Source: a bacterium
Lineage (GTDB): Bacteria; Armatimonadota; Zipacnadia; Zipacnadales; UBA11051
Assembly (NCBI GenBank): GCA_030604405.1
Contig: JAUVVY010000032.1
Coordinates: 1 to 48,491, forward strand
Direction: 5' to 3'
DNA: 48,491 nt
In this document: positions 17,510-32,911 of the stretch, piece after piece
How positions within the stretch are numbered: position 1 is the first letter of the stretch
Layout of the letters: each line of letters opens with the position of its first letter
Notes under the pieces: model-generated
The model's input: only the letters and a program-made list of their open reading frames with translations
Told to the model about the DNA's origin: nothing
Database searches by the model: none
Program-made: the position numbers and the translations under genes

Positions 17510-17639
17510 ACGGGCAGGTGTCCGCATCCCCGGGGGCGAACTGACAGCCTGCGACAGCATCTTGCCCGGCTAGTTGCGGCGCAGATAGCTTTCCGCAGTG
17601 GCTCACTATTCAGGATATTGCTGCGAAAGGGACGGACAA

Positions 17640-18677
17640 ATGCCCAAGAAGAAACCGATCAAAGTAGCTGTTATCGGCCTGGGACGGTCAGGCTATGACA
17701 TTCATATCAGGCGCGTGCGGGGCGATGATCGCTTCGAGCTCACCGCCGTCACGGACTGGATGCCAGAGCGCATGGACGAGGTGCAGGCCGAATTCGGCTG
17801 CGCTACCTATCCCGACCACAAGGCTCTACTCAAGGACGCCGACGCCGATGTCGTCGTGACCGCCACGTACTCCAACACGCATGTACCTATCTCCAGGGAT
17901 GTGCTGCGCAGCGGCCGGCACTGCATCTGTGAGAAGCCGATCTCCGACAGCTACCAGTCCGCCCGGGGCCTCGTTGAGCTCGCGAAAAAGACGCGCAAGC
18001 AACTGTTCGTACATCAGAACTACCGCTTTACGCCCGAGAGCCGCCATATCCTCGATGTCATCAAGTCCAGGCGCATCGGCGATGTTTTCGAGATCCGCAT
18101 GCGTTCGCTCGCTTTCAGCCGCCGCGACGACTGGCAGACGCTTGCCAAAAATGACGGCGGTGTCATCAATAATACCTGCCCGCACTTCATTGACCTGGGC
18201 CTGCAGTTCCTCGGCTCGCCGGTGCGGCAGATCTTCTGCGACCTGAAGCATATCGCGGCGGCGGGCGACGTGGAGGACCATGTCAAGGTTCTGCTGAAGG
18301 CTGAAAATGGCCGCGTATATGACATGGAGGTCTCCAGCGCCTGTCAGTTCCCGGAGCCGAAGTGGACGCTGCTCGGCTCCTGTGGAACGCTTGTCTCCGA
18401 CGGCAAGACCAGCAGAATCGAATGGTTCGATCCCAAAAAGCTTGCCAAGCTTGAGGTCATCGAAGAGCCGCCAGCGGACCGCAGGTACGGTAACGACGAT
18501 GTCATCCCGTGGCAGTCGGAAGAGGTCCCATCTGTGGGCCCGCCCATCGGCGACTTCTATGACAACGTATGGGCCGTGCTGCGAGAGCGCAAGGCAATGG
18601 TGGTCAAGCCTGAGCAGGCGCTGGAAGTCGTCCGCATCACCCAGGCCTGCAAGCGCGCCAGCGGCTTCTACGAATAG
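17640..18677 (+). CDS. Gfo/Idh/MocA-family oxidoreductase
   Basis: A dinucleotide-dependent sugar-type oxidoreductase of 345 residues. The Rossmann start is KVAVIGLGRSGYDIHI; VVVTATYSNTHVPI and CICEKPISDSYQSA carry the EKP lysine; QNYRFTPESR and NNTCPHFIDLGLQFLG mark the C-terminal domain with its conserved His. The ATG at 17640 has AAGGGA 7 nt upstream, whereas an ATG at 17598 lacks one. It stands upstream of the KDPG-aldolase fusion gene, but that gene also has its own promoter. By context it may oxidise or epimerise a uronate-type intermediate. Confidence 0.92.
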   Translation: MPKKKPIKVAVIGLGRSGYDIHIRRVRGDDRFELTAVTDWMPERMDEVQAEFGCATYPDHKALLKDADADVVVTATYSNTHVPISRDVLRSGRHCICEKPISDSYQSARGLVELAKKTRKQLFVHQNYRFTPESRHILDVIKSRRIGDVFEIRMRSLAFSRRDDWQTLAKNDGGVINNTCPHFIDLGLQFLGSPVRQIFCDLKHIAAAGDVEDHVKVLLKAENGRVYDMEVSSACQFPEPKWTLLGSCGTLVSDGKTSRIEWFDPKKLAKLEVIEEPPADRRYGNDDVIPWQSEEVPSVGPPIGDFYDNVWAVLRERKAMVVKPEQALEVVRITQACKRASGFYE

Positions 18678-18788: not shown

Positions 18789-18828
18789 TTTGCGATACGC
18801 ATGTGACAATCTTTCAGGAGGCTTTGCG

Positions 18829-19857
18829 ATGGCACAGTTCTCGAGGATGGAAACACTCAATACCATTTACGATGACGGCCTGGTGCCGGTGTTCTACAAT
18901 GGCGATATCGAAGTGGCCAAACGGATAGTTGACGCGATCGCCGAGGCCGGCGGTCATATCGCGGAGTTCACCAACCGTGGCGATTTTGCGATTGAGGTAT
19001 TCTCGCAGCTCATGAAGTACTCCCAGGAGCAATACCCGCAGGTAATCATGGGGGTCGGCTCAGTGATTGACGCCCCGACTGCGGCCATGTACATCGCCAA
19101 CGGCGCCAACTTCGTAGTCGGCCCCACGCTGAATCCGGAGGTTGCCAGGGTTTGTAACCGCCGCAAGGTCCCGTACTCGCCTGGGTGTGGCAGCGCCACG
19201 GAAATCCAGCAGGCCCACGAGCTAGGCGTGGAGATCGTCAAGGTCTTCCCGGGCGGCCAGGTCGGCGGCCCGGCCTTCGCAAAAGCCATCAAGGGGCCGT
19301 GCCCCTGGACCAGCATCATGCCCACAGGCGGCGTGGATGCAACCGAAGAGAGCGTCACCGCCTGGATAGAGGCCGGCGCTGTCGCTTTGGGCATCGGCAG
19401 CAAGCTGATCGTCAAGGAGCTTGTGGCCGCCGGCGACTTCGACGCCATCAAGACCAAAGTCGCCAACTGCCTGTGGTGGGTCAAGCAGGCCCGAGGCGAG
19501 TCGGTGTTTATCGGTATCGAGCACCCGGGCATCTTCCCCACTGAAACAGGCGGCGGCGAGGATGTGGCCAAGTGGTACGCGGATACCTTCGGCTTTGACA
19601 TGAAGGTCGGCAACTCCTCCGTATTCGTCTCGGGCCAGGGCAAAGGCCGCCTGGAAGTAATGAAAGAGCCGTCCGAAGAGAAGGCGCACATCTGCGTACT
19701 GGTACACGACATGGATGAGGCCATTGCACAGCTCGAAGCCAAGGGCCTCGAAATGGAGGATGTCAGCGAAAAGCCGACTCTCAAGGCCTGCTATCTGAAG
19801 TCAACCGACCCGGGTGGCTATCGCGTCCATCTGCTCTGGAACCCCTCCGTGACCTGA
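18829..19857 (+). CDS. KDPG/KHG aldolase fused to a glyoxalase/VOC domain
   Basis: The first domain (about 10-220) is a class I 2-dehydro-3-deoxy-phosphogluconate / 4-hydroxy-2-oxoglutarate aldolase, cleaving KDPG to pyruvate and glyceraldehyde-3-phosphate. It has Glu46 and Arg50 in AEFTNRG, GVGSVIDAPTA, PYSPGCGSATEI, Schiff-base Lys138 in VEIVKVFPGG (most relatives have KxFPA) and the phosphate site MPTGGVD. The second domain (about 228-342) is a vicinal-oxygen-chelate fold: IGIEHPGIFPTE, AKWYADTFGF, RLEVMKE, AHICVLVHDMDEAIAQL and GYRVHLLW. His232, Glu276, His287 and His334 could form a metal site. AGGAGG stands 7 nt before the ATG at 18829. Ordinary KDPG aldolases are about 210 residues, so this fusion is unusual; the VOC part might isomerise, epimerise or open the sugar acid fed to the aldolase. 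Confidence 0.9.
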   Translation: MAQFSRMETLNTIYDDGLVPVFYNGDIEVAKRIVDAIAEAGGHIAEFTNRGDFAIEVFSQLMKYSQEQYPQVIMGVGSVIDAPTAAMYIANGANFVVGPTLNPEVARVCNRRKVPYSPGCGSATEIQQAHELGVEIVKVFPGGQVGGPAFAKAIKGPCPWTSIMPTGGVDATEESVTAWIEAGAVALGIGSKLIVKELVAAGDFDAIKTKVANCLWWVKQARGESVFIGIEHPGIFPTETGGGEDVAKWYADTFGFDMKVGNSSVFVSGQGKGRLEVMKEPSEEKAHICVLVHDMDEAIAQLEAKGLEMEDVSEKPTLKACYLKSTDPGGYRVHLLWNPSVT

Positions 19858-19917: not shown

Positions 19918-19961
19918 TTTGCTGTCGGCGAGCAGGTGCCCGGTCTATCACCGCCGAAAGT

Positions 19962-19977
19962 GCCAGTGCAAACTGGC
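19962..19977. promoter_or_regulatory. Short palindrome before the lyase gene
   Basis: GCCAGT, four bases and ACTGGC form a perfect inverted repeat 54 nt upstream of the lyase start. It could be an operator half-site pair or a leader hairpin; its short length makes chance possible. Confidence 0.3.
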
Positions 19978-20031
19978 CGCAGTCGCAAAAGACCACTGAT
20001 GATAGCTCCCAGAAGAAAGGTCGAAAAGGCA

Positions 20032-23000
20032 ATGACAGCCACACGTCACCCGTTTTTGCGCTGGTTGATCGTCACTCTGTTGACGCTCTTGCTGCTGGCG
20101 GAAGCCGGCGTGGTTATGGCAGATCCGCCCCTGATTGGCCTCGCTGGGGACAAGTACCGGCGGGCCTACATCGGTATCATCGAGCAACTGGGGGGCGTGG
20201 GAGAGCAGATCTCAGGCGCTGAGCTTGAGGACCTGCAAGCGTTGAGCAAGTACGCGGCTGTGGTTGTCGTTATGCGTGGTGATGCCGGGCAGGAGACCTA
20301 CGGGTTCAATGAGGCGGCGGATGCTGTAGTGGCTGAGTACGTAAAAGGCGGCGGGCGGGTGCTATGCTCGTTCGGCTGCTCGCCACCAAAGGTGATACTC
20401 GGGGGCCCGAGCAACACCCAGGGGTGGGGTCGCGGCCCGGACTGGGTCGTCACCGACAACAGCCACCCCATTACGGCGGGCATGCAACTCGGACAGATCG
20501 TGCGATATGGCGCGTATCGCTGTCGGATTGCCGAGATTGAGCCGCCGGGCAAGATGCTGCTTGCGGACATCGGCGACAGTACTGCCGTAGCAGCTATCCC
20601 GTACGGTGACGGCGAGGTAATCCAGACCAACGGGGATCTGGGGCATGGTGGAGCCGACGCCACCAGCGATGAACTGCGCTACCGCGTCATGTTGTATCTG
20701 CTCTACGGGAAGGGCCAGGAACGTTTCGGGCCCGAACTCCCGGCGGCGCTCCAGGAACCTGTCCAGCGGCCGCAACTCCATACGCCCCGTCAACTGGCGT
20801 TGCCAGCCGCCGAGGATGCCGGTTACATCTTCAAGGAAGACTTTGATGGACAAGCCCCTGCCGGCGAATTGGACTACGGCTACCGCGCAGGTGTCAGCAA
20901 GGCCGCTGACGGCGCAGGCAGCTATTGGGCGATATCGGCTCCTGAGGGCAACCAGACCTTCGCGCCGTGGGTGCGCGCGCCGATTGCCGATGTTGAGGTG
21001 GAGGCGGGTCAGATCTACCGGCTCTCTGGACGAGCCCGCATTATCGGTCTGGCACAAAGCGTCTTTGCACCCGCACATCTTGAGCTGCGTTTCCACAGCG
21101 CCGATGGAGCGGAGCTTTCCCATCCTGGCATTTGCACCGATGATGCGCCGATAAAGAACCAATGGACGCAGGTATATACTCAAAGCGTCGCCCCTGAAGG
21201 TGCAATTCGGGCCACTGTGACGGTGTCGCTGATGCTCTCCGGCGGGGCGTTGCAGATTGATGATGTTGGCTTGAAACGCGCGCCAACGGTGGACGAGGTC
21301 TTCGCTGATGAACAGCCACTCACGGCTAAGATTGACGGCCATCCACGCGCCATCATCAGCCCTGAAGCCGCGGCCAGATTCCCACAAAAGGCCGCCGATA
21401 CTAACGAGGGGATTTTCGGGGCATCATCGGCAAGTCTCTTCAACAATATCCGCGGGCGCGCCGACAGGTACCTCGAGGAAACGGAGATAACCTTTGCACA
21501 GCAATCGCTGCCCTGGCCGCCGACAGAGATGCCCCAGGCAGGCGGCGGACTGAGTTGGAATCCCCTTGCCGGCGCACTCTCCGAGCGCCTCAAGAGCCTG
21601 TCAATTGCCTATGCGGCTACCGGGAATGCACGCTATGGCCAACGCGCTGCTGAGCTGCTGCTGGCAATCTGCAACTGGCCGCAGTGGTACGATCCGGTCA
21701 ACAACCGCCCCGGCTTGGACATCGGCAACATCTCCCTCGGCGCCGCCTTCGCATACGATCTGTGCTATGACCTGTTGAGTGACGACGAGCGCGCTTTTGT
21801 CGCCGCAGCGATGCGCCGCAATGTGCTCCTGCCGCTCTATGCCCCGCTCTCACAGGGCATGGGCAATAGCAACGGCTATGCGCTGTGGACCGCCGCGATG
21901 GGGCTGTGCGCGATTGCAACACTGGGCGAAACACCGGGCGCTTCCAAATGCATCCGCCTGGCCGAGGATTGCGTGCTCGATTACTGGGACAAGCGCGCCA
22001 ATTCGCACCGCACTGAGGGGATGGGGTACGATTCCTGGGCCTACGGGCTACTGATTTTCCTTGCCGACTCTCTCAAGCGCAACTTCGGCGTGGACCACCT
22101 TGATCATCCCTTCCTGCCGGTGATGCCGCGCTTTGCCACGGCCTTCCTGGCCAATGACCGCAGTCACCTGGCCTGGTTCGCCGACGCCGGCGGCTCGCCC
22201 AGGTATGTGGCATGGCATTTCCCCCTGACGCTGCTGGGTGCCTACAACGGCGACGGCACGGCGGGCTGGTGGCTGCGGGAAACCGGTAGTCTCAGTGAGG
22301 TCGGTTACGACCACTACAAGGTGCTTGTCTTCGATCCTGACACGCCGGTTATCGAGCGGAACCCGCAGCGTCCTGGTGATGTCTTCCCACATGCCGGTTG
22401 GGCATCTCTGCGGTCAGGCTGGGAGCGCGGCGGCACCTTCATTGCCCTGCAATGCAGCTCCTCCGGCCAGGGCCATCATCAGATGGACCAGAACAATTTT
22501 CTCATCTACCGCGACGGGGTGGAGCTCGCCCAGGACTGCGGTTATGCTTCCGCCCTGGGAGGAGCGCTGCGGGAATTTGCGCGCGGGGCCGTCGGGCACA
22601 ACTGTATCCTCGTGGATGGTAAGAACCAGAACAAGAAACTCGGCAACATCCCCTTCTTTGCCACCACTGCCCGTGTTGACTACGCGATGGGCGACGCGAC
22701 TGCTGCTTACAGCAGCTCACTGGTCAGCCGCGCTCAGCGCCATTTCATCTACCTCAAGCCCGACCTGCTGCTGATCGTTGACGACCTGCGCGCCGCCGGC
22801 CAGCCGCGCAGCTTCCAGTGGCTGCTGCACCCTCACTCATGGGGCGACTTGGCGCAGATCACCCGCGATGGGCAGGAGATGCAAGTCGGTGCCCCCGCCG
22901 CCCCAGGCACTGTCGAAGTGCTCAAACAAGACAAGCAGATGCGCATCCGCTTCCTGCACCCCGCTGACGTGGCGGTGGAATATATTACGTACCCCGGGGC

Positions 23001-23280
23001 GGAGAAGTATAACCCCTACATTCAGGCCAATGTCCCGCCCACCGATGAGGTCGTGCTGGTCACACTGCTCGAGTTCGGCGACACTCACGCAGAGGATGTC
23101 TCCGCTATCGTTAGCAATCGGCTAGTTGTGCTCTCATGCACGGCTGATGACAAAGCCCACCAGGTCATGCTGAAGTTGGTGGGCGACGCCGGCGAATCGC
23201 CGCATCTGAAGGTGGAGCTCGACGGGGAAACATTGCTCGACAGAGACGACCTGACCATTCCGCCGGATGTCACCGGCTGA
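20032..23280 (+). CDS. Secreted heparinase II/III-family polysaccharide lyase, multidomain
   Basis: A large exported lyase-like enzyme, expected to cleave uronate-containing polysaccharide by beta-elimination. The signal peptide spans residues 1-30 (RHPFLRWLIVTLLTLLLLAE, cut after VMA). Next come a class-I glutamine-amidotransferase/ThuA-like domain (about 33-235) with no obvious catalytic residues, and a beta-sandwich carbohydrate-binding-like module (about 265-420) ending QIDDVGLKRA. An alpha/alpha toroid (about 440-770) has AFAYDLCYDLLSDDERA and MGNSNGYALW, and the heparinase II/III beta-sheet domain carries the signature GHHQMDQNNFLIYRDG near residue 815, where a His is normally catalytic. 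The ATG at 20032 places the basic residues just before the hydrophobic core; upstream in-frame starts would extend the N-terminus unusually. It follows the KDPG aldolase gene by 174 nt, consistent with uronate use. Confidence 0.88.
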   Translation: MTATRHPFLRWLIVTLLTLLLLAEAGVVMADPPLIGLAGDKYRRAYIGIIEQLGGVGEQISGAELEDLQALSKYAAVVVVMRGDAGQETYGFNEAADAVVAEYVKGGGRVLCSFGCSPPKVILGGPSNTQGWGRGPDWVVTDNSHPITAGMQLGQIVRYGAYRCRIAEIEPPGKMLLADIGDSTAVAAIPYGDGEVIQTNGDLGHGGADATSDELRYRVMLYLLYGKGQERFGPELPAALQEPVQRPQLHTPRQLALPAAEDAGYIFKEDFDGQAPAGELDYGYRAGVSKAADGAGSYWAISAPEGNQTFAPWVRAPIADVEVEAGQIYRLSGRARIIGLAQSVFAPAHLELRFHSADGAELSHPGICTDDAPIKNQWTQVYTQSVAPEGAIRATVTVSLMLSGGALQIDDVGLKRAPTVDEVFADEQPLTAKIDGHPRAIISPEAAARFPQKAADTNEGIFGASSASLFNNIRGRADRYLEETEITFAQQSLPWPPTEMPQAGGGLSWNPLAGALSERLKSLSIAYAATGNARYGQRAAELLLAICNWPQWYDPVNNRPGLDIGNISLGAAFAYDLCYDLLSDDERAFVAAAMRRNVLLPLYAPLSQGMGNSNGYALWTAAMGLCAIATLGETPGASKCIRLAEDCVLDYWDKRANSHRTEGMGYDSWAYGLLIFLADSLKRNFGVDHLDHPFLPVMPRFATAFLANDRSHLAWFADAGGSPRYVAWHFPLTLLGAYNGDGTAGWWLRETGSLSEVGYDHYKVLVFDPDTPVIERNPQRPGDVFPHAGWASLRSGWERGGTFIALQCSSSGQGHHQMDQNNFLIYRDGVELAQDCGYASALGGALREFARGAVGHNCILVDGKNQNKKLGNIPFFATTARVDYAMGDATAAYSSSLVSRAQRHFIYLKPDLLLIVDDLRAAGQPRSFQWLLHPHSWGDLAQITRDGQEMQVGAPAAPGTVEVLKQDKQMRIRFLHPADVAVEYITYPGAEKYNPYIQANVPPTDEVVLVTLLEFGDTHAEDVSAIVSNRLVVLSCTADDKAHQVMLKLVGDAGESPHLKVELDGETLLDRDDLTIPPDVTG

Positions 23281-29699: not shown

Positions 29700-30824
29700 T
29701 CACTTGTCAGAGGCGAAGTCCGGGTTCCGCAGTTCCCCCACCGCCTCGATCATGGCGCGGAAGTTCTCGGGTTTGATTGGCGGGTTGATTTCGCTGGCAG
29801 TGCCGATCAACAGCCCTCCGGTTTGCAGAGCGTTGGTTGCCTCGATTTGCCTGTGTACTTCCCGGCGCACTTGCTCTGGCGTGCCGCGTTCCATCAGGTC
29901 AACGCCATCTACGCCGCGCATCCAGACATGCCCCGGCCAGGCGTTTTTCAGCTCCACGATATCCATGCCCACCGATGGCTCCGTACAACTGAACCCATCC
30001 ACTCCGCAATCCACCAGGTCCGGGATGAGTTTCTTCCAATTGCCATCATTGTGATAGAGCACTTTGATGCCGTGGCTCTGCCAGGCTTCGGTCACCTGCC
30101 CCAGGTAGGAGAAGTGTTCTTCGTGCAGAAACTCGGGGCTGAACATCGGGCCTTGCTTGGTACCCCAGTCGGCGAAGATGCAGGCCACAGGCGAAAGGTC
30201 GCGGTCGGCAATGGCGTGGACCCGGCGGACTTCATTTCTCGCATAGGTCTCGATGTATGCGGAGACAACATCAGGATCGTCCGCATACAGGTAGCAGAAA
30301 AGCGTCAACCCCAGCGCCCACCAACATTCTTCCAGGCCGAACCGGGCCCCGGGGATGATTACCGTCCCGCCGACGAGCCTTTTCAGCTCGTTCTGCCGCT
30401 GATAGAACTCATCGCGCACCTGCGCATCGTCAATCTCAGCGTTCTGCATCTGGTCGGTCTTACGCAGCAGATATTCGCGGGCACCGGCGACATCATCAAA
30501 TGGGCGCTTCGCTATCCACCAGTTCCAGTTATCGTTCTGTATCTCGAAGCCGTCTTCGTCTGTTATCAAGTCAGTCCCGAGCGGGTCGTGAGCTTGAAAG
30601 CAGGTGTCGAGGGTTTGCCTGATGACTTCACAGATGTCCTTATACGTGTAGTTGAACCCTTCGATTTCTCTGCCTGTGTACATCGCGATAACGCCGGGAT
30701 TCCAGCTAAGCTGCTCGTGAATTGCCACGCGGTCCACCGGCTGTAGGTTGAGTGTCCTCTCCACCCGCTCTCTTTTCGACAGCACATCGGTCGGGAAGAT
30801 CTTGTCAGATTCAGTGTCTGGCAT
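29700..30824 (-). CDS. Uroporphyrinogen-decarboxylase-like protein (second UroD family member)
   Basis: UroD-superfamily TIM barrel of 374 residues, distinct from the one at 24613. Recognisable parts are SKRERVERTLNLQPVDRVAIHEQLSW, DPLGTDLITDEDGFEI, IKVLYHNDGNWKKLIPDLVDCGVDGFSCTEP, MRGVDGVDLMERGTPEQVRREV and GGLLIGTASEINPP. The DLMERGTPEQV segment is typical of the methyltransferase-like branch of UroD proteins. The ATG at 30824 has GGGAGG 7 nt upstream; a longer frame to 31007 would overlap the divergent promoter. It is the first gene of the minus operon. No corrinoid protein gene is nearby, so methyl transfer cannot be claimed. Confidence 0.85.
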   Translation of the reverse strand: MPDTESDKIFPTDVLSKRERVERTLNLQPVDRVAIHEQLSWNPGVIAMYTGREIEGFNYTYKDICEVIRQTLDTCFQAHDPLGTDLITDEDGFEIQNDNWNWWIAKRPFDDVAGAREYLLRKTDQMQNAEIDDAQVRDEFYQRQNELKRLVGGTVIIPGARFGLEECWWALGLTLFCYLYADDPDVVSAYIETYARNEVRRVHAIADRDLSPVACIFADWGTKQGPMFSPEFLHEEHFSYLGQVTEAWQSHGIKVLYHNDGNWKKLIPDLVDCGVDGFSCTEPSVGMDIVELKNAWPGHVWMRGVDGVDLMERGTPEQVRREVHRQIEATNALQTGGLLIGTASEINPPIKPENFRAMIEAVGELRNPDFASDK

Positions 30825-30891
30825 CCGGCGCCTCCCTGCTAGTCCCATACTCATTCCGCGCGACCACCGGGGCAACCTGCGTAACATGGCC

Positions 30892-30920
30892 TTGTGTGTT
30901 TGCTGGCAGAGTGCTAATCT
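30892..30920 (+). promoter_or_regulatory. Extended -10 promoter for the isochorismatase-like operon
   Basis: TTGTGT (30892-30897), a 17-bp spacer and TAATCT (30915-30920) with an upstream TGC making an extended -10. The 7-bp inverted repeat TGCTGGC / GCCAGCA (30901-30907, 30942-30948) brackets the -10 and start region. The layout closely resembles the promoter at 42815-42843. Confidence 0.6.
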
Positions 30921-30984
30921 TATTGCCACGCAAACTAGCCGGCCAGCATACTCAAACTTACGAAGAGTACGGAGTGATCGCGAC

Positions 30985-31872
30985 ATGACCCCGAGGAAAA
31001 AGACCAAACCGGCGAAGAAGATGACTATTCAAGTTCCCTGGCACATGTACCGCCACTACCCGGCGGACTTCTCGCTCTGGGATGCTGCTGCCGCTGGCTT
31101 CAATGGCTGGGATTCGAAGGTCCGCGACTTGGACCTCGCCCGCACCTGTCTGGCCCTGATGCACTTCACCGACGCCGGCTTAGCGCCTGACGTAGAGTGG
31201 GGGCCGGATTGCCCGAACCCCAATGCTCTCGGCACTATCGAATGGGTACCCCGCTTGATGGACGTAGTGACTTTTCGCATGCCGCGACTAATCAACGCTG
31301 CCCGTGAAGCGGGCCTGCAGGTCGCCCAGGTCGGCGTCAGCGGCTCGCCATATACCGAAGGCACAATCTGGCAGAAGTGCTCCGAAGAGGCTGGTGACCC
31401 GCCGCCACCCGACGAAGACGTGTTGAGCGACAAAGAGCCCAGGTGGAAAGCCAAGCACCACCGCGATGTGTTCGATCTGCCGCGCAAGAGCCCCAAGCAG
31501 GTCCCACCGCACGAATTCTCCCTCCCCGACGTCTTCCTGCCACAGGGCGATGACCTCATCGCGCAGCACCCCTGGCAATTGCACCGCCTGCTGAAGAACC
31601 GTGACATTGATCACATCATCTACTGCGGCTGGGCGATCAACTGGTGCTTGTGGTTCTCGCCGTGCGGCATGTCTGACATGAGCCGCAAGGGCTACATGTG
31701 CTCGGCCGTGCGCGGCGGCTGCGTTGCGATAGAGAACAAGGAATCGGCTGTCGGCGAGTTGAACCTAGAATATGCCCTTTGGAAAACTAGCACCATGTTC
31801 GGCTACATCTTCGATTTGCACGAGCTCACCCATGCCTTACGGCAATACGCCGTCCAAAACACAGATGAGTAA
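30985..31872 (+). CDS. Cytosolic isochorismatase-like cysteine-hydrolase-fold protein
   Basis: The 295 residues resemble the isochorismatase fold: an opening strand RTCLALMHFTDAGL, a helix pair around RLINAAREAG leading to strand LQVAQVGVSG, and IDHIIYCGWAINWCLWFSPC followed by GMSDMSRKGYMCSAVRGGCVAIENKES, corresponding to the GxxTxxCVxxT cysteine loop and the later Gly-rich strand. The Cys is kept, but the usual first-strand Asp is His in ALMHF, and the usual Lys before the cysteine loop is not evident (AQHPWQLH). The basic N-terminus MTPRKKTKPAKKM is not a signal peptide. The ATG has GGAG 10 nt upstream. The next gene is its exported paralogue. Substrate unknown; divergent hydrolase or pseudo-enzyme. 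Confidence 0.72.
   Translation: MTPRKKTKPAKKMTIQVPWHMYRHYPADFSLWDAAAAGFNGWDSKVRDLDLARTCLALMHFTDAGLAPDVEWGPDCPNPNALGTIEWVPRLMDVVTFRMPRLINAAREAGLQVAQVGVSGSPYTEGTIWQKCSEEAGDPPPPDEDVLSDKEPRWKAKHHRDVFDLPRKSPKQVPPHEFSLPDVFLPQGDDLIAQHPWQLHRLLKNRDIDHIIYCGWAINWCLWFSPCGMSDMSRKGYMCSAVRGGCVAIENKESAVGELNLEYALWKTSTMFGYIFDLHELTHALRQYAVQNTDE
31728..31806 (+). repeat. 79-bp block shared by the two isochorismatase-like genes, copy 1
   Basis: It matches 32761-32839 at 77 of 79 bases, including nearly all synonymous positions, whereas other parts of the two genes differ clearly in DNA. It covers the segment from IENKESAVGELNLEYALWKT to FGY. Confidence 0.85.
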
Positions 31873-31909
31873 ATGTCAGCAGCCGTATGAAACGATCGGA
31901 GGCATACCA

Positions 31910-32911
31910 ATGTCTAAGGGGCTTACAAAACTTCTTTCCGCGCTCTGCTTTGCTTTGCTGTTTGCGACTGTCGGCGCCACCTACACAGGTGGCGGACCAA
32001 GCCGGGCAGCCACGACACAGCCGGCTGACGCTCAGAAGCCCAAAGAGGCCAACCAGACAACGATCAGCTTGCCGTGGCACATGTATCGCCACTACCCCGC
32101 CGACTTCTCCAAATGGGATGCGGCCGCCCTCGGCTTCAATGGCTGGGACTCCGAGGTCCGCCAACTGGACCTCTCCCGCACCTGCCTGGCCTTGATGCAC
32201 TTCCCCGACCGCGGCCTGACACCTGATAGCGAATGGGGCCCGGACTGCCAGAACCCCGCCTACCTGGGCACCGTCGAATGGGTGCCTCGTACCATGGACG
32301 TGGTGACCTTCCGCATGCCGAGACTCATCCAGGCCGCCCGTGATGCCGGCATGTTGGTCGCACACGTCGGTATGGGCAAGCGGTTCGATACAGATGCTCC
32401 CATCTGGGACAAGTGCGTCAAGGAAGCCGGCGATCCCCCGCTGCCTGACGAGGATGTCATCGAGGGAAAGCCCGCCTGGAAGGCCCAGCACACAAGAGAC
32501 GTATTCGACCTGCCGCGTCAGAACCCGCCCGATGTCCCGCCCCACAAGTTCACACTGCCTGAAGAACTCATCCCGCAGGGCGACGACATCATCGCGCTGC
32601 ACCCGTGGCAATTGCACCGCTTGCTAAAGAATCGCGGCATAGATCACATCATCTACACCGGCTGGGCGCTGAACTGGTGCTTGTGGTTCTCGCCCTGCGG
32701 CATGGCTGACATGGGCCGCAAGGGCTACGTGTGCTCGGCGGTGCGCGGCGGCTGCGTGGCGATAGAGAACAAGGAATCGGCTGTCGGCGAGTTGAACCTG
32801 GAATATGCCCTTTGGAAAACCAGCACCATGTTCGGCTACGTCTTCGAGCTGCATGAGCTGACCCACGCCTTGCGCGAGCATGCGGCCAAGTCGGCCAGTT
32901 CCGAGCAGTAA
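31910..32911 (+). CDS. Exported paralogue of the isochorismatase-like protein
   Basis: From residue about 50 onward it parallels the preceding protein closely (PWHMYRHYPADFSKWDAAAL, TCLALMHFPDRGL, HIIYTGWALNWCLWFSPC). It begins with a signal-peptide-like segment, GLTKLLSALCFALLFATVGA, and a Thr/Gln/Ala/Pro-rich linker, so the same domain is predicted to act outside the cytoplasm or at the membrane. The canonical Asp is again His, and the Cys is retained. The start is the ATG at 31910 with GGAGG 7 nt upstream. It lies 37 nt after the cytosolic copy and 35 nt before the HEAT gene, so one transcript is likely. Two localised copies suggest processing of one substrate on both sides of the membrane. 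Confidence 0.74.
   Translation: MSKGLTKLLSALCFALLFATVGATYTGGGPSRAATTQPADAQKPKEANQTTISLPWHMYRHYPADFSKWDAAALGFNGWDSEVRQLDLSRTCLALMHFPDRGLTPDSEWGPDCQNPAYLGTVEWVPRTMDVVTFRMPRLIQAARDAGMLVAHVGMGKRFDTDAPIWDKCVKEAGDPPLPDEDVIEGKPAWKAQHTRDVFDLPRQNPPDVPPHKFTLPEELIPQGDDIIALHPWQLHRLLKNRGIDHIIYTGWALNWCLWFSPCGMADMGRKGYVCSAVRGGCVAIENKESAVGELNLEYALWKTSTMFGYVFELHELTHALREHAAKSASSEQ
32761..32839 (+). repeat. 79-bp block shared by the two isochorismatase-like genes, copy 2
   Basis: Partner of 31728-31806 (77 of 79 identical), at an offset of 1033 bp. Confidence 0.85.

Follow-up and report, generated by a model that had tools for sequence, protein, structure and literature searches.

The fused gene and its aldolase half

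The window, by which we mean the whole 48,491-nucleotide stretch analysed here, carries on its forward strand a gene for a protein of 342 amino acids (eda::voc, positions 18829-19857, ATG to stop), in which a KDPG/KHG aldolase continues in one frame into a domain of the VOC (glyoxalase) fold. This continuation had been proposed in the original prediction and is confirmed by the open frame; the same architecture is found in relatives. Translation most likely starts at the ATG at 18829, as judged from an AGGAGG ribosome-binding site (18816-18821, forward strand) spaced 7 nt before it and from the MAQF, MAKF or MARF starts kept in full-length relatives. A TTG start at 18790, taken from a mechanical list of open reading frames, is not needed, and the ATG with its AGGAGG is preferred.

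Both neighbouring genes lie on the same strand. Upstream, a Gfo/Idh/MocA oxidoreductase (17598-18677) also adjoins the fusion in a congener (genome G004, gene order at locus L088), and downstream lies a heparinase II/III-like protein (19936-23280; PF07940). The surrounding segment from 8413 to 31007 is crowded with sugar and sugar-acid genes, including several Gfo/Idh/MocA-like oxidoreductases, an aldo/keto reductase, URO-D-like genes and a DegT aminotransferase in addition to the heparinase II/III-like gene. Elsewhere in the window, a run of chemotaxis-type genes (CheW-, CheA-, CheC-, CheB- and CheR-like) can be read in the sequence between 665 and 6875, and two adjacent, clearly similar open reading frames at 30748-32911 look like a tandem duplication.

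The aldolase half (residues 1-222; 18829-19494) is covered by the whole of the NCBIfam model NF005499 (E 1e-96, 322.9 bits against a cut-off of 275), and Pfam PF01081 covers residues 17-208 (E 5e-34). When the AlphaFold model was superposed on solved structures, this half was closest to 8di1, the KDPG/KHG aldolase Eda (Bfo2294) of Tannerella forsythia, with which it shares the (beta/alpha)8 fold (Z 37.5, rmsd 0.9 over 220 residues), 48-49% identity over the whole half, and both Glu46 (18964-18966), at the catalytic acid/base position, and Lys138 (19240-19242), at the Schiff-base lysine position. These two residues are invariant in alignments A1 and A3 and, like the PTGGVD motif, do not vary among the fusions. 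Family models and invariant residues thus agree with the earlier assignment of a complete class I KDPG/KHG aldolase. The accompanying remark that standalone KDPG aldolases end near residue 210 needs adjustment for this subfamily, whose unfused members examined reach about 222-231 amino acids; these, unlike the fusion, lack a VOC domain. The aldolase half would accordingly work as class I KDPG (or KHG) aldolases ordinarily do: with a Schiff base formed at Lys138, it would split its substrate, in the open-chain keto form, into pyruvate and glyceraldehyde 3-phosphate. Fusion of a KDPG aldolase with a pathway partner is also seen in the trifunctional KHG/KDPG aldolase/sugar kinase family NF041633, although the partner there is a PfkB-type KDG kinase and here a VOC domain.

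The VOC half and its candidate metal site

The C-terminal half (residues 225-342; 19501-19854, forward strand) is matched by the Pfam Glyoxalase family PF00903 over residues 245-334 (E 3e-6, 28.0 bits against a cut-off of 20.6), so that both domains named in the original prediction, PF01081 and PF00903, are matched in one protein. PF00903 has no other match in the genome from which the window comes. Because matches to the aldolase half filled the fold search with the full model, the VOC half was folded alone; its best 50 fold matches were then all VOC-fold proteins (Z up to 7.8), the first strand being of low confidence, and its predicted strand order fits paired beta-alpha-beta-beta-beta modules. 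Domain match and structural matches therefore concur that a VOC-fold domain lies C-terminal to the aldolase. The VOC-half model itself, with a mean pLDDT of 68.5 that falls below 50 at residues 222-235 around His232, is too weak for metal geometry.

Four plausible metal ligands had been pointed out in this domain, and all four prove invariant across every complete member examined: His232 (19522-19524) on strand 1, Glu276 (19654-19656) on strand 4, His287 (19687-19689) on strand 5 and His334 (19828-19830) on strand 8, the last in every copy that reaches its position. These candidate ligands would together hold a divalent metal. Equally invariant is Lys279 (19663-19665), three residues past the second ligand, which may contact a carboxylate or phosphate. 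All five positions are without variation in a joint alignment of 31 sequences, and the full H-E-K-H-H pattern is carried by 13 of 13 complete Armatimonad fusions (a few of these loci being redundant, as one genome reached by two routes or as near-identical copies, and one extra copy that ends at a contig end before the last His being left out), by 36 of 36 Clostridial fusions and by 4 of 4 standalone relatives. Automated comparison left the last ligand position unaligned in ordinary VOC paralogues, and eight of these were read by eye instead; none has His there, the residue being Glu, Gln or some other. Within the sequences compared, 3-His-1-Glu at the usual VOC ligand positions is thus a distinctive mark of the family. 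In E. coli glyoxalase I the strand-8 ligand position is occupied by Glu, which serves as the catalytic base.

Glyoxalase I and methylmalonyl-CoA epimerase, the nearest though weak relatives among solved structures (E about 1e-4), share with the VOC half the fold and the ligand positions on strands 1, 4, 5 and 8, but they are not fused to an aldolase and have Glu rather than His at the fourth position. Neither identity could be upheld for the VOC half of the window: it scores 15.9 bits against a cut-off of 120 with the glyoxalase I model TIGR00068, and 14.4 bits against 114.95 with the epimerase model TIGR03081.

One suggestion in the original prediction was that the VOC half handles a reactive aldehyde product; a candidate would be methylglyoxal formed from the triose phosphates that the aldolase makes. 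The aldolase does yield glyceraldehyde 3-phosphate, and strands 5-8 bear a weak likeness to lactoylglutathione lyase models. A glyoxalase I-type version of this idea is weakened, however, by the His that all complete members carry where glyoxalase I has its catalytic Glu; glutathione, moreover, would not be expected in these anaerobes, the association with uronate and KDPG genes described below would go unexplained, and other enzymes that form triose phosphates would need such protection equally. Detoxification is for these reasons highly improbable.

One VOC family on two aldolase subfamilies

The window comes from an Armatimonadota genome, and Candidatus Zipacnadia metagenome-assembled genomes are its closest named relatives. 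The survey covered Armatimonadota, an even draw of 291 Clostridia genomes from the class to which the Oscillospiraceae metagenome-assembled genome G291 belongs, the phylum of the Desulfobulbaceae metagenome-assembled genome G292, and a plasmid collection. The same fusion was found in 14 of 291 Armatimonadota genomes from three families (f1, f6 and f11), at 60-94% identity; two further genomes of that phylum (G272 and G282) hold another, divergent version. Full-length fusions occur in 36 of the 291 Clostridia genomes, and tblastn against plasmids returned a 315-residue eda::voc fusion in Subdoligranulum. A scan of genome contigs with one query sequence recovered only five close Armatimonadota fusions, and scans of viral contigs recovered none. 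Among 297 genomes of the phylum of G292 there was no convincing match to the VOC family, the two partial matches scoring 27.6 and 21.1 bits (E 7e-6 and 5e-4).

Recurrence of the one-frame architecture in 14 Armatimonadota genomes of three families rules out a chance joining or a misassembly. An apparent triple fusion of Gfo/Idh/MocA oxidoreductase, aldolase and VOC domain (727-residue open reading frame; genome G003, locus L087, 4224-6407) was set aside as an artefact, an ambiguous base having joined two frames. Against five relatives, dN/dS was 0.07-0.17 for the aldolase half and 0.15-0.27 for the VOC half, rough values given that dS is saturated in several pairs; these low ratios indicate that both halves are maintained under purifying selection.

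The VOC half of the Clostridial protein scanned escapes Pfam, and PF00903 matches nothing in two Clostridial genomes that carry the fusion; listings built on domain matches will therefore probably overlook a large part of this family. The architecture is present in many public genomes, yet it is uncharacterised as far as the literature and PDB searched show. No solved structure or assay of an aldolase-VOC protein was found in either, and no paper on a KDPG aldolase-VOC fusion or on a VOC anomerase was found in the literature within reach, outside which most subscription papers lay. The original prediction had allowed that the architecture might turn out to be both common and characterised: common it is, in Clostridia, whereas a paper or solved structure describing it was not found.

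The aldolases to which the VOC domain is joined belong to two subfamilies, the Armatimonad fusions carrying the NF005499 type and the Clostridial ones the classical Eda type. Otherwise, NF005499-type aldolases were encountered in this analysis as unfused enzymes of Bacteroidota, with a sugar kinase alongside and, in one instance, uxaC. On a quick tree of the aldolases, a single clade of all fusions was rejected (delta lnL 252, AU p 2.8e-52). The separate clades imply either two separate joinings or a swap of the aldolase half, between which the tree cannot tell. The VOC halves of the two groups are, by sequence comparison, specific relatives: their profiles align with an hhalign probability of 99.4 and with the ligand positions in register, and the Clostridial VOC profile, searched against 11 Armatimonadota genomes that carry the fusion, hits the fused gene at E 1e-8 to 3e-14, with only two other matches, both at E of at least 0.16. 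The same profile found no member of the family in three Armatimonadota genomes with an unfused NF005499-type aldolase.

Across the 291 Clostridia genomes the VOC family is represented by 36 fused copies, 2 intact standalone copies and 1 remnant beside a KDG kinase, six further matches (E 4e-6 to 7e-4) that cover part of the profile only being excluded from the count. Four intact standalone copies were examined across the survey (L085, L086, L137 and L138). In one of them (L137, 5717-8675, genome G535) the VOC gene lies two genes from a BNR_2 (sialidase-like) gene, with a transporter-like gene between. The VOC family is thus nearly always fused to an aldolase. This near-constant fusion, its occurrence on two aldolase subfamilies and its setting in uronate and KDPG gene clusters give good support to the earlier idea that the VOC domain is functionally coupled to a 2-keto-3-deoxy-acid aldolase.

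Such coupling need not involve chemistry by the VOC half. With its metal the domain might hold a metabolite of the pathway, such as KDG, KDPG, pyruvate or glyceraldehyde phosphate, and so regulate or channel the aldolase. Many VOC-fold proteins do bind ligands, bleomycin-, zorbamycin- and tiancimycin-binding proteins stand among the top fold matches, and near-obligate fusion would suit a regulatory domain. We nevertheless consider a purely binding role unlikely: active sites typically show the kind of complete conservation seen here, where four ligand-type residues and a Lys are kept with both aldolase types and in the standalone genes, and a regulator specific to the aldolase would not need the four intact standalone copies.

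Gene neighbourhoods and a proposed ring-opening step

In Clostridia, the fusion sits among genes of uronate and KDPG metabolism. The order is kduI-kduD-rpiB-like-eda::voc at two loci (L101 and L106) and kduI-kduD-eda::voc-kdgK at another (L104), and kdgK adjoins eda::voc at five more (L029, L046, L102, L103 and L105). Family models were run on the KduI and KduD-like proteins at L106, on the RpiB-like protein at L101 and on the kinase at L029, neighbours at the remaining loci being assigned by sequence clustering or by reading the sequence; for the KduD-like short-chain dehydrogenase the best NCBIfam name is gluconate 5-dehydrogenase, and KduD models match it too. In the Armatimonad congener G004 (L088), model-checked gnd, zwf and pgl genes stand beside the fusion together with the Gfo/Idh/MocA oxidoreductase. 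A KDG-kinase homologue of 57-67% identity was found in 10 of 10 fusion genomes searched, the query being the kinase beside the unfused aldolase of G043; in the window's genome it lies at G000:C46:76734-77837. The kinase homologues, taken with the uronate and KDPG neighbours, make KDPG the likely substrate, as read from gene content.

These neighbourhoods also bear on two other chemistries. The VOC half might catalyse some other metal-dependent uronate step, for example on the 5-keto-4-deoxyuronates derived from the products of heparinase- or pectin-type lyases, an idea in keeping with the KduI and KduD-like genes that flank several Clostridial fusions and with the heparinase II/III-like gene directly downstream in the window. 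However, the flanking KduI and KduD-like genes already cover those steps, and in the Armatimonad congener the neighbours are zwf, pgl and gnd rather than uronate genes, so such a role appears distinctly improbable.

Metal-stabilised enolates are chemistry common to glyoxalase I and methylmalonyl-CoA epimerase, which favours a further candidate, an enol-keto tautomerase that would protonate or deprotonate C3 of a metal-chelated 2-oxo acid, and so ketonise the enol released by sugar-acid dehydratases or handle the aldolase's pyruvate enol. The standalone relative L086, 48 bp upstream of a dehydratase of the IlvD/Edd family, points the same way. Against it, the strand-8 base of glyoxalase I is replaced by His, a KDG kinase and not a dehydratase adjoins several Clostridial fusions, and each of six Armatimonad genomes tested has at most one ILVD_EDD gene (five of the six have one, as a family-level match that may be Edd or another member); tautomerisation is thus rather improbable. 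The dehydratase at L086 (Subdoligranulum plasmid OY725857, 5492-7564) scores below the ilvD cut-off; after it come a LacI-like regulator gene and one resembling a sugar isomerase, both judged from sequence.

The reading we prefer is that the fusion is a bifunctional enzyme of 2-keto-3-deoxy sugar acids, whose VOC half interconverts the cyclic and open-chain forms of KDPG for the aldolase; we put its probability at roughly 0.4. Members of the VOC superfamily chelate vicinal oxygens through a metal, and the carboxylate and C2 oxygen of 2-keto-3-deoxy acids are adjacent. The substrate of the aldolase could therefore bind to the VOC half as well, its C1 carboxylate and C2 oxygen serving as the vicinal oxygens; the metal would polarise the C2 hemiketal, and the resulting exchange between cyclic and open-chain KDPG (an anomerase activity) would supply the aldolase with the form on which it acts. 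Here we infer the metal binding, the substrate and the ring-opening reaction alike. Stated more specifically, the VOC half would be an anomerase of KDPG (or another 2-keto-3-deoxy acid) with a 3-His-1-Glu site, an unrecognised step of Entner-Doudoroff and uronate metabolism joined to two aldolase subfamilies even though spontaneous opening is thought fast enough; this sharper statement is offered tentatively.

Opening of the substrate was among the steps suggested in the original prediction, and it has an experimental parallel in YhcH, a zinc protein that opens Neu5Ac for the class I aldolase NanA (PMC8141875). The likeness lies in the proposed function only, the supply of an open form to a class I 2-keto-3-deoxy-acid aldolase: the N-acetylneuraminate anomerase YhcH is a separate DUF386 protein, whereas the present domain has the VOC fold, is fused, and would act on KDPG. 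No YhcH/YjgK/YiaL (DUF386) match appears among the Pfam and NCBIfam matches of the fusion protein. A gene of that family does occur on an Ilyobacter polytropus plasmid (NC_014633.1; L201, 5259-7469), where it is oriented divergently from the genes for an unfused KDPG aldolase and its sugar kinase, at a distance of about 1.1 kb; in this one case it possibly stands in, as a separate anomerase, for the absent VOC domain.

Several observations speak against ring opening. Most KDPG aldolases have no VOC domain, and it is also lacking where unfused aldolases of the same subfamily adjoin a sugar kinase. It is the keto form on which KDPG aldolase acts, and according to work cited within the YhcH paper this form makes up about 9% of KDPG; because an open fraction of that size is a lot, the paper expects that KDPG aldolase would presumably gain nothing from an anomerase (PMC8141875). 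Moreover, the neighbours of the standalone VOC relatives are mixed, which leaves room for a substrate other than KDPG, be it a different 2-keto-3-deoxy acid or another compound altogether.

KDPG aldolase is a textbook enzyme, and a second domain of metal-binding type, rarely found without it and joined to two of its subfamilies, implies a further step in sugar-acid metabolism in some bacteria. Should ring opening prove to be that step, the published view that an anomerase is of no benefit to KDPG aldolase would be overturned; the fusion family offers a natural test of that view.
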